Virus record (IMG/VR): IMGVR_UViG_3300025141_000811
Coordinates: 1-22,900 of that record
DNA: 22,900 nucleotides
Source of the DNA: a virus
Reading direction: 5' to 3' (one strand)
Positions 12,566 through 22,246 of this stretch are shown piece by piece (positions within the stretch are counted from its first letter, which is position 1; each line of letters opens with the position of its first letter). A model generated the notes under the pieces. That model was not told the origin of the DNA. It made no database searches and saw only the letters and a list, made by a program, of their open reading frames with translations. The position numbers and the translations under genes were made by a program.

Positions 12566-13372
12566 TTAAATCAACGCCCAGCTACGCCACCATTTAGTAA
12601 TTACGTATTTATCTTCTTTTAGTGGTGGTAAAGCTTCGTGCATAGTTTTATAATTTGGTTTTCCATTTCTGTATAAGTTATTCCAAGCTACAAGAAGGCC
12701 TCTTTCTGGTTTAATTTTTAAATTGAGTCGTTTAAAATATGTTTCTCCTCCTTCTTTTACATTGTTTAAGTAGATCATTGTTGTCCAGGTTCTTTGACCC
12801 ATCCATTCACAGTAAACCTTATATTGTTTTTTCTCATTAGGTAGAAAGAAATCCCAATGTTCTTTATAATATTCTCCTGGATGATATTTGTGTGCTTGGG
12901 ATCCTTCTCCTAGGAAGGTGTCTAGTTCTAATAAATTTCCTATTCTTTCCTCTACATCAAAGACTATTTCATTAGGAAAGTGTTCTAAATTAGCAGTTTG
13001 ACTAGTTCTATAGTCTGAAGTTTCATATTCATCTTCATCATTTGCTAATGGTGATCTAAAGGCTGCTGTATCAATATAATTAATTAATGTAGAGCATTCT
13101 TTTTCTGTTAGAAAATTTCTATAAGCATAAACTTGCGTGAATGGATATTTTATTTGAAGTGCCTTTTTTGTAATTGGGCTGTTATAGAAATAGTCATAAT
13201 CAATTCGTTTTGGTTTCTTTTTAAAATTGCAAAGTTGTAATAACCATTCAATTTCTTTATCATTATATTTACCATTTTCTTTAAATTCTCTTAAGAGACT
13301 TGTCTTTGATGTACCAGCTAAAGCGCCTCTTGTAAGATACTTAATTCCATCTTGCATTTCTTTTGGGTCCAT
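12566..13372 (-). CDS. 2OG-Fe(II) dioxygenase, prolyl 4-hydroxylase type
   Basis: 268 residues. The double-stranded beta-helix domain spans about 80-265. H172 and D174 (KEHWDFF) form the HxD motif, H245 (MHEALPP) is the distal iron ligand, and K255 (EDKYVITKWW) is the expected 2-oxoglutarate-binding lysine, ten residues after H245 as in P4H-type enzymes. All four are present, so an active dioxygenase is likely. The GGETYFKRLN block and GLLVAWNN also fit the family. The N-terminal 60 residues are charged and helical and may bind a partner. Such P4H-like genes are frequent in cyanomyoviruses; the substrate is unknown. The gene is alone on the minus strand, with both neighbours pointing the other way, so it should have its own promoter upstream of 13372. 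Confidence 0.85.
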   Translation of the reverse strand: MDPKEMQDGIKYLTRGALAGTSKTSLLREFKENGKYNDKEIEWLLQLCNFKKKPKRIDYDYFYNSPITKKALQIKYPFTQVYAYRNFLTEKECSTLINYIDTAAFRSPLANDEDEYETSDYRTSQTANLEHFPNEIVFDVEERIGNLLELDTFLGEGSQAHKYHPGEYYKEHWDFFLPNEKKQYKVYCEWMGQRTWTTMIYLNNVKEGGETYFKRLNLKIKPERGLLVAWNNLYRNGKPNYKTMHEALPPLKEDKYVITKWWRSWALI

Positions 13373-18067: not shown

Positions 18068-18745
18068 TTAGTCGTCTACTGCTCCAAAATCTAACATATC
18101 GACGTAATCTTGTGTGAGTAGACCAAAGTCTAGTTGAGTATCAAAATCATCTTTAATTAAACCCCAATCATTAATATTGACATTTAAGCTTATTGCATAA
18201 GTAGTCTCAAGATAGCGAATGTCATTCGTTACTAAGAACAGGTAATTTCCTGGTGACAACTTAGTGATAGGGTAATCATCAGTACCAATTTCTATCTCAT
18301 CATCTAGATAATCAACTGCACCCTCGTTGTATACATAACCGTCATCATTAATTGGTAGCTCTTCTCTTCTTTTATCTTCAGTTATTCGATAGAATGCAAG
18401 TAATGTATTTTTATTTGTATTACTCTCATATGAAAATTGAGAGTAATCTTGTGTAAATTGAAGAGATCTTGGTTCAATTAATTTTATTTTATAAAAAGTT
18501 GTTTGTTTACGAGATAAACCTCCATGAGAGTTTTTTATTGATAGAGATTTAAATACAGAAGAAAAATCTCCTAGGTCAATTGGGTTATTGAGGTTATCTC
18601 CATCTTCTACTGGTCGTGGATCTGAACCATAATATGATGTAGGCCCATAGGCGGTTGGTCCTGCACCTCCTGTAGGATATGACTGTACTGTTCCTAGGTT
18701 ATAAAAACCTGTATTATTCGGAATTGTCGTTAGATACCTGCTCAT
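18068..18745 (-). CDS. Beta-rich protein with PPC-like domain, probably virion-associated
   Basis: 225 residues. The N terminus is Tyr/Gly/Pro-rich (YPTGGAGPTAYGPTSYYGSD). A predicted beta sandwich follows, resembling the pre-peptidase C-terminal (PPC) domain: NNPIDLGDFSSVFK opening, then QTTFYKIKLIEPRSLQFTQD, then ITKLSPGNYLFLVTNDIRYL and YAISLNV. PPC domains occur as non-catalytic attachment modules on secreted enzymes and phage proteins. The C terminus has a repeated acidic LDFG motif (FDTQLDFGLLTQDYVDMLDF). There is no catalytic motif, so this would be a binding or structural module. The 5' end overlaps the upstream gene by 32 bases. Confidence 0.55.
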   Translation of the reverse strand: MSRYLTTIPNNTGFYNLGTVQSYPTGGAGPTAYGPTSYYGSDPRPVEDGDNLNNPIDLGDFSSVFKSLSIKNSHGGLSRKQTTFYKIKLIEPRSLQFTQDYSQFSYESNTNKNTLLAFYRITEDKRREELPINDDGYVYNEGAVDYLDDEIEIGTDDYPITKLSPGNYLFLVTNDIRYLETTYAISLNVNINDWGLIKDDFDTQLDFGLLTQDYVDMLDFGAVDD

Positions 18746-19148
18746 ATTCTGCTTTTAAGCCAGTGGTTAGTCCATGCATGGGATGTTCAGGATCATCTCT
18801 GCCGGATTCTTTATATCTTTCATTCATTATTCTAACTCGTTCAGCCATACGCTTAACTCCTTCTTTACCTGTACTCTCATTTGCCATGACGTCAGTGTAG
18901 GAGTGATAATCCATTGCTTCTTCTAGTAAAGGTTTTACAGCTTCAGCTTCAGTTTTTGTATCAAACCAAGCAGACCAAGTTGATTGACCATTGATGGTAA
19001 TTAGGACTGCATATTGACGCTCCTCTGGTAAATGATAATTACTTGGTTGTACCGAGCTTTCCTTGCATGTTATGCGCCCTCTCTTTGTGGTGTTTAAAGA
19101 TGTTTCCGTGAGTGAGTTTGATTCTCTCAATTTCATTTGGGTGGTCAC
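18714..19148 (-). CDS. Small hypothetical protein, start uncertain
   Basis: Up to 144 residues from a GTG at 19148. The first 36 or so codons overlap the end of the HNH-like gene in another frame and look poor. The coherent part starts around residue 40 (LPEERQYAVLITINGQSTWS, then AWFDTKTEAEAVKPLLEEAM) and continues into a charged helix (VKRMAERVRIMNERYKESGR). No ATG, GTG or TTG lies in the ideal position near 19040. ATG at 19136 or TTG at 19130 are the nearest. The combination of a beta start and a long helix does not identify a family. Confidence 0.5.
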   Translation of the reverse strand: MTTQMKLRESNSLTETSLNTTKRGRITCKESSVQPSNYHLPEERQYAVLITINGQSTWSAWFDTKTEAEAVKPLLEEAMDYHSYTDVMANESTGKEGVKRMAERVRIMNERYKESGRDDPEHPMHGLTTGLKAEYEQVSNDNSE

Positions 19149-20184
19149 AGTTTTTTAGTTCTCTGATTGTAAGGTGTGTTGGGTTGCAGCAGAAAGAAAC
19201 ACATGTTGGTCTGCTAAAAATTCTATATTTACCTGTATAGCCTCGACTTAGCCAAAAAGCTACTCTTGAAGCCGATTGGGTTTTAGCGGCGTGGAATGGC
19301 GAAGGAAAATAAGCAGTGGATTCAGTCCCATGTTTTCTAGCGGCCCCTTGCCATTTCCAACATTCGTCAGCTCCTTTTATGTCAACTTGATCCCAGAAGC
19401 TTTTTGCTTGCCAATAGAAGGTTCTGAAGTCGAAGTTAGTGACATCTACTGTACATCGTCCCTTTTTTATTTCTTTCATGCAATCTAAACACTCTCCCAT
19501 TAAACCAAAGTTTCCTTTGTGTCCTTCGTCTCCTGGTTTATGCCAAGGGCATGTTTTACTCTCATTCATAAGGTAGGTACGTCGAAAATCCTGAGTTTCA
19601 ATGGGATGAGCTTGAACTAATTCTTTACAGGTTACTAGAAAATTTTCCCAAACTTCTTTAAAGCTACCAGATTTAAGATCCCCGGCAACTTCCTCATAAG
19701 TTATATTATTGCAGATTCGTCTGACCGTATGATATGGAACTTTATAAACTTTAGATAACTCTTTATTACTTATCCCCTCCTCCTTTTCACTTCTTAATTT
19801 AGTTATTAAGTCTTTACTAATGTCTTTTTTAGTACGTTTTGCTTCTTCATAGGCAACATCACTTCTTGTCCCCCAATAGTAATGGGTTGGATTAATGCAG
19901 TATTTAGATTTACATATTGATCGACGAACAATTATAGGCTTTGTTCCTTCATAGGGGCTTCCTATCATTGCGAGTAGAAGTGGTCTTGCATCTTTATTTT
20001 TATAGAGAGGTATATTTACTTTTGTAGTTTTAAAACCTTGGAGCGCTAACGAATTATATTCTTTGAGACACCAGCATTGCTCTTTTCCTATCTCTTTAAT
20101 AGCAGCTTGAAAGGCTACAGCGAAAGCTATTTGGTCTTTTGCGGTTAAGTCTTTAGCTAGAAATGGTGATTCAATACTTATCAT
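19039..20184 (-). CDS. HNH-like zinc protein with two CxxxxCxNPxH-type modules and a central helix-turn-helix
   Basis: 381 residues. Module 1 (about 35-110) ends in RRSICKSKYCINPTHYYWGT. Residues 120-160 (DISKDLITKLRSEKEEGISN, KELSKVYKVPYHTVRRICNN) look like a helix-turn-helix. A zinc-ribbon-like pair (C212, H215, C232, C235) follows. Module 2 (about 262-340) has FWDQVDIKGADECWKWQGAA at its start and TCVSFCCNPTHLTI at its end. The W-x-W-x-G and C-x4-C-NP-x-HL signature belongs to HNH endonucleases of phages. The first catalytic His expected just before the Cys is Arg or Pro in both modules, so nuclease activity is uncertain. A site-specific DNA-binding or homing-endonuclease-derived role is plausible. 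It heads the minus-strand set and is next to the palindrome-rich region. Confidence 0.65.
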   Translation of the reverse strand: MISIESPFLAKDLTAKDQIAFAVAFQAAIKEIGKEQCWCLKEYNSLALQGFKTTKVNIPLYKNKDARPLLLAMIGSPYEGTKPIIVRRSICKSKYCINPTHYYWGTRSDVAYEEAKRTKKDISKDLITKLRSEKEEGISNKELSKVYKVPYHTVRRICNNITYEEVAGDLKSGSFKEVWENFLVTCKELVQAHPIETQDFRRTYLMNESKTCPWHKPGDEGHKGNFGLMGECLDCMKEIKKGRCTVDVTNFDFRTFYWQAKSFWDQVDIKGADECWKWQGAARKHGTESTAYFPSPFHAAKTQSASRVAFWLSRGYTGKYRIFSRPTCVSFCCNPTHLTIRELKNCDHPNEIERIKLTHGNIFKHHKERAHNMQGKLGTTK

Positions 20185-20293
20185 AAGTAGGGTAACAGGT
20201 GCTGAGCAGCTAAGACTTCAGTTATAGCAAGAAAAGTTGTTGACAACCAAATTGTAACTTTTTCCCTCTATTTTATTTACTTCTAGAGAGGAT

Positions 20294-20344
20294 GAGGTTA
20301 GGTACTTGTCTGTAATTCTTTTATATACACTCTTATACCTAACC
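20294..20344. repeat. Palindromic element A (GGTTAGGTA arms)
   Basis: Perfect inverted arms GGTTAGGTA (20296-20304) and TACCTAACC (20336-20344), with a 31-base spacer. The left arm extends as GAGGTTAGGTACTTG (20294-20308), which is the reverse complement of the right arm of element B (20560-20574) at 14 of 15 positions. Internal motifs TTGTCTGTAA, ATATACACTC and TACCTAAC are shared with element B. Confidence 0.75.
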
Positions 20345-20422
20345 ACAACATATACGTACTTAAGTAAAACACCCTTTATTTTTTAAAATTTGGGTGTTCA
20401 CAACAAAATAATTGCGGTGAAA

Positions 20423-20463
20423 GGGGTTTTGAGGAATTAGGCCTTGAGAAAGGGTCCTCCCCC
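20423..20463. other. GC-rich imperfect hairpin, possible terminator or structured RNA
   Basis: Nested pairings are visible: GGGG (20423-20426) with CCCC (20460-20463), GAGG (20431-20434) with CCTC (20456-20459), and CCTT (20442-20445) with AAGG (20450-20453) around a GAGA tetraloop. Small bulges interrupt the stem on the left arm. Read on the minus strand it would follow the 54-residue gene and end in CCCC then TTTTC, so it may be a leftward terminator. Confidence 0.45.
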
Positions 20464-20513
20464 TACCTATTTTTAGTGTTATTGACTATTTTTTCGAAGG
20501 AATTTAGATTTTG

Positions 20514-20574
20514 GGTTAGGTAGTTGCCTGTAAAATTCGACTAAAATTCATATGACACTCAAGTACCTAATCTC
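20514..20574. repeat. Palindromic element B (related copy of A)
   Basis: Left arm GGTTAGGTA (20514-20522), right arm TACCTAATC (20564-20572), paired at eight of nine positions. The internal order mirrors element A: GGTTAGGTA, then TTGCCTGTAA, TTC, ATA, ACACTC and TACCTAA. The spacer is about ten bases longer. The right arm reaches into the stop codon of the small gene at 20573-20737. Confidence 0.75.
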
Positions 20575-20737
20575 AATGGTAGTTAAATAATTCTTCGTAG
20601 AGTTCTGCAAATGTTTTAGCTTGATCTGCATCTTTGGCGTATCGACATGTACCTCCTCCTGGGCAGCAAACTAAGTGTTCTTTATGTCCTCTATTTTCAA
20701 AGACTTCTATTGTTGTCCCATGCTGTAAGGTTGTCAC
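20573..20737 (-). CDS. Small Cys-containing protein, 54 residues
   Basis: Frame from GTG at 20737 to TGA at 20573-20575. Product: MTTLQHGTTIEVFENRGHKE, then HLVCCPGGGTCRYAKDADQA and KTFAELYEELFNYH. The CCPGGGTC motif (residues 24-31) is distinctive, and His21 nearby could complete a metal site. A helix (DADQAKTFAELYEELF) forms the C terminus. The composition and the clear beta-then-helix organisation argue for a real gene, although the start is GTG and the ribosome-binding site is poor. It ends where element B's right arm begins. No family is recognised. If a metal-binding regulator, it could act on the neighbouring palindromes, but that is speculation. Confidence 0.6.
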   Translation of the reverse strand: MTTLQHGTTIEVFENRGHKEHLVCCPGGGTCRYAKDADQAKTFAELYEELFNYH

Positions 20738-20792: not shown

Positions 20793-21491
20793 ATGTCATC
20801 GTCATTTATATCTCCAAATTCACTAAAACTAGGACCTTTTAGTAAGTTTTCATCTACTGTTGCTCCTAAAGTTAGTAGAGGACTTCCTTTTTTAAAGACT
20901 TTTGCTAAAGGGTTGAGGTTTGCTCCTGGTATTCGGATAGGTACTGGTCTGTTGTCAGGTACGAGCAGGCTTTTATCTGGTGAACCGCTGCATAAAGTTG
21001 GTATGGGTTACGCTCAAGCAATTCCAGGTCCTATAGGTTGGTCGGCAGTTGCAGCTGATTTGGCTGACCAAGCTGGAGTATTTTCTAACATGTCTGGGGG
21101 TAATCCTGCGTCTAACTTTACCGGTGGGTTACCAAATACTTCACCAAGTACAGGAATGGCCAATATTCCAGCGACTGTACCAAGTACTGGGCAGTCTCAT
21201 AAAGATTTTGAAATTCAGCAACGTCAGGAGCAAGGTGCATACATTCCACCTGGGATGACTACTTCAGCTGGGGTTCCTGTCGAAGCGCAAGCTGGTGGTG
21301 GTATACCTGATTTTATAAATACAGGAAAAGATCAATGGGGTAGGTCCGCATCTTATAAAACTGATGATGGTACTTGGGTAAATAGATCTAATGTATTTAC
21401 GCCACATTACGAGACTGGTGAGGATCTTGGAGTCATGACTCGAAATCAGCGTAGGGCATATGATCTAGCAGCAGCAAAAGCTGGGTTTTGA
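20793..21491 (+). CDS. Hypothetical Gly/Pro/Ser-rich phage protein, possibly virion-associated
   Basis: 232 residues with ATG at 20793. The N-terminal 60 residues are basic and amphipathic (LKTFAKGLRFAPGIRIGTGL). A weakly hydrophobic segment follows (GYAQAIPGPIGWSAVAADLA). The centre is a low-complexity Pro/Ser/Gly/Thr stretch. The C terminus has GKDQWGRSASYKTDDGTWVN and ends TRNQRRAYDLAAAKAGF. No signal peptide and no catalytic motif are visible. The amphipathic basic N terminus followed by a flexible region is typical of membrane-interacting or ejected virion proteins, but the evidence is only compositional. It starts the final plus-strand block and is divergent from the 54-residue gene, with a 55-base gap between them. 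Confidence 0.6.
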   Translation: MSSSFISPNSLKLGPFSKFSSTVAPKVSRGLPFLKTFAKGLRFAPGIRIGTGLLSGTSRLLSGEPLHKVGMGYAQAIPGPIGWSAVAADLADQAGVFSNMSGGNPASNFTGGLPNTSPSTGMANIPATVPSTGQSHKDFEIQQRQEQGAYIPPGMTTSAGVPVEAQAGGGIPDFINTGKDQWGRSASYKTDDGTWVNRSNVFTPHYETGEDLGVMTRNQRRAYDLAAAKAGF

Positions 21492-21766: not shown

Positions 21767-22246
21767 ATGGAGATGATGAATCCTGGTGATGCCTTTCTTA
21801 AAGATTACAAGGATCGCCATTCTACTTATTTTTCAGATCGTCCAGAGGATCGATCTATTGATATCTCACTTGGAGATGCATTAGTAGGTGCGTCAGTGAG
21901 AGCTACAAATGATGCAAGAGAAACAGCGGAAAGAGAAGGAATGAATACATCGGCAACACAAAATTTAAATCCTACTTCTGAGTCCTCCCTACGTGAACTA
22001 CAAGCAGTTCCAGGAGAACAACCAGTGAGAGGATCAGGAGAACAACCAGTGAGAGGATCAGGAGAACAACCAGTGAGAGGACCAGGAGGATTGACTAGAG
22101 AGGAGTTTGAGGCTCTATCTGATGACGAACAATTTCGGACAGTACTTAAAGATTCAATGCCTACACCACATGGATTACATCGTGTAGTTACAGGTGTTGC
22201 TGATTTCTTAACGGGTAATCAATATGATTATGATCGGCGCGGTTAA
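21767..22246 (+). CDS. Acidic hypothetical protein with GEQPVRGS tandem repeat
   Basis: 159 residues from ATG 21767, preceded by GGAGG about five bases upstream. The N terminus is charged (MEMMNPGDAFLKDYKDRHST). Residues 83-106 are three tandem octapeptides GEQPVRGS, the last ending in GP. The C-terminal part has LTREEFEALSDDEQFRTVLK, then VVTGVADFLTGNQYDYD. A REEFEALSDDEQF-type helix of this kind resembles phage scaffold or connector segments, though no family is named with confidence. The 24-base DNA repeat is nearly perfect and in frame, so copy number may vary between phages. Confidence 0.6.
   Translation: MEMMNPGDAFLKDYKDRHSTYFSDRPEDRSIDISLGDALVGASVRATNDARETAEREGMNTSATQNLNPTSESSLRELQAVPGEQPVRGSGEQPVRGSGEQPVRGPGGLTREEFEALSDDEQFRTVLKDSMPTPHGLHRVVTGVADFLTGNQYDYDRRG
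22013..22084 (+). repeat. Triple 24-base tandem repeat
   Basis: Three head-to-tail units at 22013-22036, 22037-22060 and 22061-22084, each starting GGAGAACAACCAGTGAGAGG. Units 1 and 2 are identical; unit 3 has one T-to-C change. Each unit codes for eight residues in frame, so gain or loss would not disrupt the gene. Its near-identity points to recent slippage. Confidence 0.9.

Follow-up and report, generated by a model that had tools for sequence, protein, structure and literature searches.

The palindromic repeats found in a non-coding region of this virus genome are probably an operator/promoter array, a gene switch of the virus's own, with the neighbouring HNH-like protein of 381 residues as its putative binder. 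The array consists of six related boxes in mirror arrangement (up to six within about 330 bp, in direct and inverted orientation), separated by T-rich tracts. It was found in a 22.9-kb virus record with genes for tail fibre, endolysin and endonuclease; this whole stretch of 22,900 nucleotides is the window to which all positions refer (Table 1). A sequence-only reading of the same DNA had offered three options for the repeats, a replication origin or iteron set, paired operators, and a structured RNA family; paired operators fits best, and the structured RNA is disfavoured.

Table 1. Elements of the array and genes on either side of it, with positions in the window
Feature	Position	Strand	Remarks
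225-aa gene	18068..18745	-	downstream of the HNH-like gene, same direction; conserved in relatives
381-aa protein, proposed array binder	19039..20184	-	two HNH-like halves around a helix-turn-helix; conserved gene of ~380 aa
P1, lone inner-box half-site	20240..20251	-	TTTGGTTGTCAA on the minus strand; consensus TTTGGSTGTTCA; fixed place conserved in relatives
Leftward -10-like box, putative promoter of the HNH-like operon	20270..20282	-	AAGTAAATAAAAT; conserved; mirrors the box at 20361-20369
Unit A	20296..20344	+	palindrome; arms AL 20296-20313 and AR 20327-20344; dyad ~20320
Rightward -10-like box, putative promoter	20361..20369	+	TAAGTAAAA; exact-register mirror of the left box
P2, lone inner-box half-site	20389..20400	+	TTTGGGTGTTCA; opposite orientation to P1
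Unit B	20514..20572	+	auxiliary palindrome; arms BL 20514-20531 and BR 20555-20572
54-aa ORF with clustered cysteines	20573..20737	-	stop codon abuts unit B
232-aa gene, first of the rightward operon	20793..21491	+	tail-fibre/spike genes then follow in relatives

Palindromic units and the mirror-symmetric module

The four arm copies of GGTTAGGTA lie where they had been placed, at 20296 and 20514 on the plus strand and at 20336 and 20564 on the minus strand (the last with one mismatch); they form two homologous units, A of 49 and B of 59 bases, whose outer arms indeed pair with each other (83% over 24 nt). The arms are longer than the 9 bp first assigned to them: each measures 18 bp, with a consensus common to both units (GGTTAGGTAYRTGASTGT) that runs from the outer box GGTTAGGTA through a variable middle to an inner box TGASTGT. 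Each unit usually combines one TGACTGT half with one TGAGTGT half, and the units are further related to each other by direct repeats of 20 nt (90%) and 22 nt (77%). That such elements are rare holds for the pair and not for the single palindrome; 9-bp inverted repeats of the arm type number three in the window against 3.4 expected, so that a lone one is at chance level, while two units with the same arms within 350 bp occur in 0 of 300 dinucleotide shuffles.

The division into two units is real and yet incomplete, having overlooked two lone half-sites, P1 and P2, and two -10-like boxes that flank A. P1 sits between the array and the HNH-like gene and mirrors P2 across the dyad of A, from which both are equidistant (about 74.5 bp each); a -10-like box falls between A and each of them (TAAATAAAAT on the left, TAAGTAAAA on the right). 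The resulting order is P1, -10-like box, AL to AR, -10-like box, P2, with two-fold symmetry around ~20320; when the left side is reverse-complemented and compared with the right, identity is 0.50 in exact register and falls to 0.27-0.35 at shifts of 1-6 bases. The centre of B lies ~223 bp from the centre of this module. Where other hairpins had been noted between the units, the one at 20367-20399 overlaps P2 and has a stability that is not unusual (z -1.6). The -10-like boxes were not selected by a generic promoter scan, and no recognisable -35 element stands beside them. Helical phasing of the boxes was considered and dropped, as spacings of 24 and 28 bp break the phase.

Conservation and position in relatives

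Searching viral contigs for the arm pattern, which yields motif-selected loci, finds the pair of A and B in the same order in dozens of marine contigs, the two starts being separated by 214-229 bp. For an unbiased set of loci, relatives of the 381-aa protein were collected by protein, not by motif, and the DNA upstream was then read. Among these protein-selected relatives, nearly all that exceed 54% identity have the first base of unit A 108-113 bp ahead of the HNH-like gene's start codon, and B lies at about 327-340 bp upstream in most of them; at 37-54% identity, most relatives carry at the place of A a palindrome of comparable size whose arm sequences differ, such as GGGTTATTCAGTGACTGT (L181) and AAAAAAGGGTTACTGACTAGCAGACA (L083). 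Unit B is missing from L121-L125, and its left arm alone is found in L161 and L171; because several relatives lack it, B is not needed everywhere. Loci that bear the element and have enough flanking sequence encode the HNH-like protein, which always adjoins the array where the flank allows, and no relative was found that has the site without this gene. The sites are also kept more strongly than the DNA around them, with a divergence per genome pair of ~0.2 against 0.46 for linkers and spacers.

In one distant relative (L199, u358-447), the place where B would be is taken by three palindromic arms in succession, TGTGTTCATACAGTGCCCGTACATT and variants of it; the most distant relatives (L081-L086) have a palindrome between A and T runs, which might also serve as a terminator in both directions. 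A 38-bp palindrome, GGTTAGGTA...TACCTAACC, with a conserved interior, is carried by another family of marine contigs that is unrelated to this one (L002-L006, L008, L013, L014 and others); it may be coding.

The array is most likely a feature of the DNA, not of an RNA. Palindromes retained in distant relatives despite changed arms would also suit a leader or small RNA built from hairpins A and B, as would the stability of the single units, which exceeds that of shuffled sequence (A: z -2.7 and -4.1; B: z -2.3 and -1.3). P1 and P2 complement each other, and their likeness is slightly greater inside a genome than between genomes (p about 0.01), a result that fits either reading. Such an RNA is nonetheless very unlikely, as both pairing and covariation of the arms stand at the level of shuffles: in 20 A units, pairing is 80.3% against 80.8% shuffled and covariation 0.042 against 0.053, and in 15 B units the corresponding values are 83.7% against 82.8% and 0.118 against 0.112. 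At arm position 15, moreover, the bases do not pair in 17/20 A units and 14/15 B units. The arms of A fit each other with 0.713 within a genome and 0.723 across genomes, where an RNA stem would predict the better fit within; the inner boxes occur alone as P1 and P2; and Rfam has no match in the window (Rfam, tRNA and tandem-repeat scans all find nothing at the array locus). Same-orientation arms of A and B, in turn, share their middle bases (0.69, against 0.50 across genomes, p 0.003), a likeness for which base pairing offers no explanation; the p-values of these arm comparisons are too small owing to relatedness, and the negatives thus outweigh the positives. The sequence-only reading had looked to relatives with the same neighbouring genes for the units and for compensatory changes in their arms: the units do occur beside the same neighbouring gene, but the clade shows no compensatory changes.

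The HNH-like protein, its neighbours and the virus group

The C-terminal half of the 381-aa protein matches phage HNH endonuclease families in 36/36 aligned relatives, with PHROG 1872, 826 and 3593 all three matched in 34-36 of the 36, and comparison with the fold of HNH proteins finds local structural similarity; PDB sequence and fold searches with the protein give no significant match. It differs from these endonucleases in combining two HNH-like halves and a helix-turn-helix in one chain, and in the loss of the first catalytic His: the C..C.NP.H core is kept in both halves, whereas the His that precedes the CxxxCxNPxH core is found in 0/36 C-terminal and 1/36 N-terminal halves. A helical segment at ~residues 124-158, modelled with good confidence, matches helix-turn-helix models; the structure model overall is modest (pLDDT 72, pTM 0.47), and the arrangement of domains is not readable from such a model. 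We propose, on these sequence features, that the protein is HNH-derived and catalytically degenerate, and that it binds DNA.

The presence of an HNH-like neighbour would also suit a site of DNA processing, be it for packaging (cos/pac), recombination or homing, with this protein as the nuclease; in other phages, proteins of the HNH type have roles in packaging or homing, and a few contigs end near the units. We give this reading scarcely any weight. With the first His missing from both halves in nearly all of the 36 relatives, the array is unlikely to be a target that the HNH-like protein cleaves; in near-full-length contigs of 73-87 kb the array is internal and varies in position, and is thus not a fixed genome end (cos); the terminase lies about 35 kb from the array in the 87-kb relative; and the constant company of the site and the HNH-like gene likewise speaks against it.

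Divergence of the sites correlates with that of the protein (r 0.51), a value that drops to a partial r of 0.04 (p 0.37) once the linked spacer DNA is controlled for. An apparent signal of site-protein co-evolution measured against the 225-aa neighbour (partial r 0.52) vanished under the same control and was rejected.

In a clade of some 20 loci, the gene that follows on the right is divergent from the HNH-like gene, its start ~425 bp away, and the array fills the intergenic region between the HNH-like operon and the tail-fibre/spike operon; since this region is divergent, promoters for both directions are expected there. Some clades have retained the 54-aa ORF and others have lost it, one clade having a rightward gene instead. 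The 225-aa protein matches no family. Elsewhere in the window, a nearly perfect 24-bp tandem repeat of 3.2 copies (CAGGAGAACAACCAGTGAGAGGAT) at 22011-22088 adds 8-residue repeats to a 159-aa ORF (21767-22246), and a 268-aa protein with a 2OG-Fe(II) oxygenase domain (PF13640) is encoded on the minus strand at 12566-13372.

Among the genes of the 87-kb relative (L113-L117) are those for a D5-type primase-helicase, a family A DNA polymerase and the photosystem protein PsbA. Of the named phages, the one closest to it in gene content is Synechococcus phage S-EIV1 (KJ410740; terminase 66.6% over 302 aa), with which the marine group has terminase, structural proteins, primase and DNA polymerase in common; judged by these genes, the viruses are marine, S-EIV1-related uncultured cyanophages. 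S-EIV1 differs in that the HNH-like and 225-aa proteins have no tblastn match there, only a weak partial match of 24%, and tblastn against a collection of GenBank phages, S-EIV1 included, finds no relative of either protein. The array region has no relevant DNA relative among GenBank phages, and a scan of bacterial and archaeal genomes finds none of the 381-aa protein. Marine genomes of the S-EIV1 type are listed as gOTU G238 (Nishimura et al. 2017, PMC5332604), and in one ocean survey such phages accounted for 3.3% of the abundance of cyanophages (PMC5332604). In the literature searched, which excludes the original S-EIV1 paper, no regulator was found described for S-EIV1-like phages, and within that limit the array and its link to the HNH-like protein family seem undescribed. 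For finding S-EIV1-related phages of this group, GGTTAGGTANNTGACTGT provides a precise DNA tag.

Proposed mode of action and known systems

An autoregulatory array is marked by related dyad sites that keep a constant place ahead of the gene for a DNA-binding protein, and such an arrangement, with a putative DNA-binding protein, is found here. In the proposed scheme, the HNH-like protein would contact the inner TGASTGT-type boxes of A, B, P1 and P2, and the outer GGTTAGGTA boxes of A and B. Bound at A, it would stand beside the expected -35 regions of two divergent promoters, to which the -10-like boxes may belong; bound at P1 and P2, it would stand just downstream of both promoters or starts. 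It would thereby govern its own leftward operon and the rightward operon that leads to tail-fibre/spike genes in relatives, with B possibly assisting by looping. If this holds, the array is the control point for a regulator and for tail genes in an uncultured lineage, and HNH nuclease folds have been reused as sequence-specific regulators. A bolder and more tentative proposal, which we hold to be somewhat doubtful, is that this represents a new kind of phage regulator, namely an HNH protein that is duplicated and catalytically dead, carries a helix-turn-helix at its centre, reads 18-bp half-sites of two boxes each within a nested mirror module, and switches a divergent region of regulator and tail genes, where the sequences of the sites change between lineages while the palindromic layout stays.

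The main rival to the operator reading is a replication origin, in which the boxes would be iterons and the HNH-like or another phage protein the initiator, melting AT-rich tracts between them. Iteron-type origins beside an initiator gene are found in phage P4 (ori/crr) and in plasmids, and the array resembles them in its clustered direct and inverted repeats by the gene of a putative DNA-binding protein, with T-rich tracts in between. It occurs at a single place in the 87-kb relative examined, which suits an origin and leaves a genome-wide regulator role unsupported. This layout makes an origin possible; we nevertheless consider it unlikely. The initiator of phage P4 is its primase/helicase, whereas here the primase is about 9 kb from the array and the replication genes are elsewhere (primase-helicase and DNA polymerase at 9-20 kb), tail and endolysin genes being nearer; the GC skew of the 87-kb relative has no sharp reversal at the array; and the promoters needed for divergent genes in one clade explain the conserved sites without an origin.

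The operator/promoter reading finds its closest parallels in autoregulated divergent operator/promoter regions with several dyad operators, such as lambda OR/OL, the switches of the P2/186 type, and the main and auxiliary operators of lac. As in these, related dyad sites lie by the gene of a (here putative) DNA-binding protein, between divergent units, with a distal auxiliary site. The array is unlike them in sequence, to which it has no relation, and in construction, being built of two-box 18-bp half-sites and lone inner boxes in a nested mirror module; its putative binder, moreover, would be HNH-derived, where systems of the lambda, P2/186 and lac type use a classical repressor.
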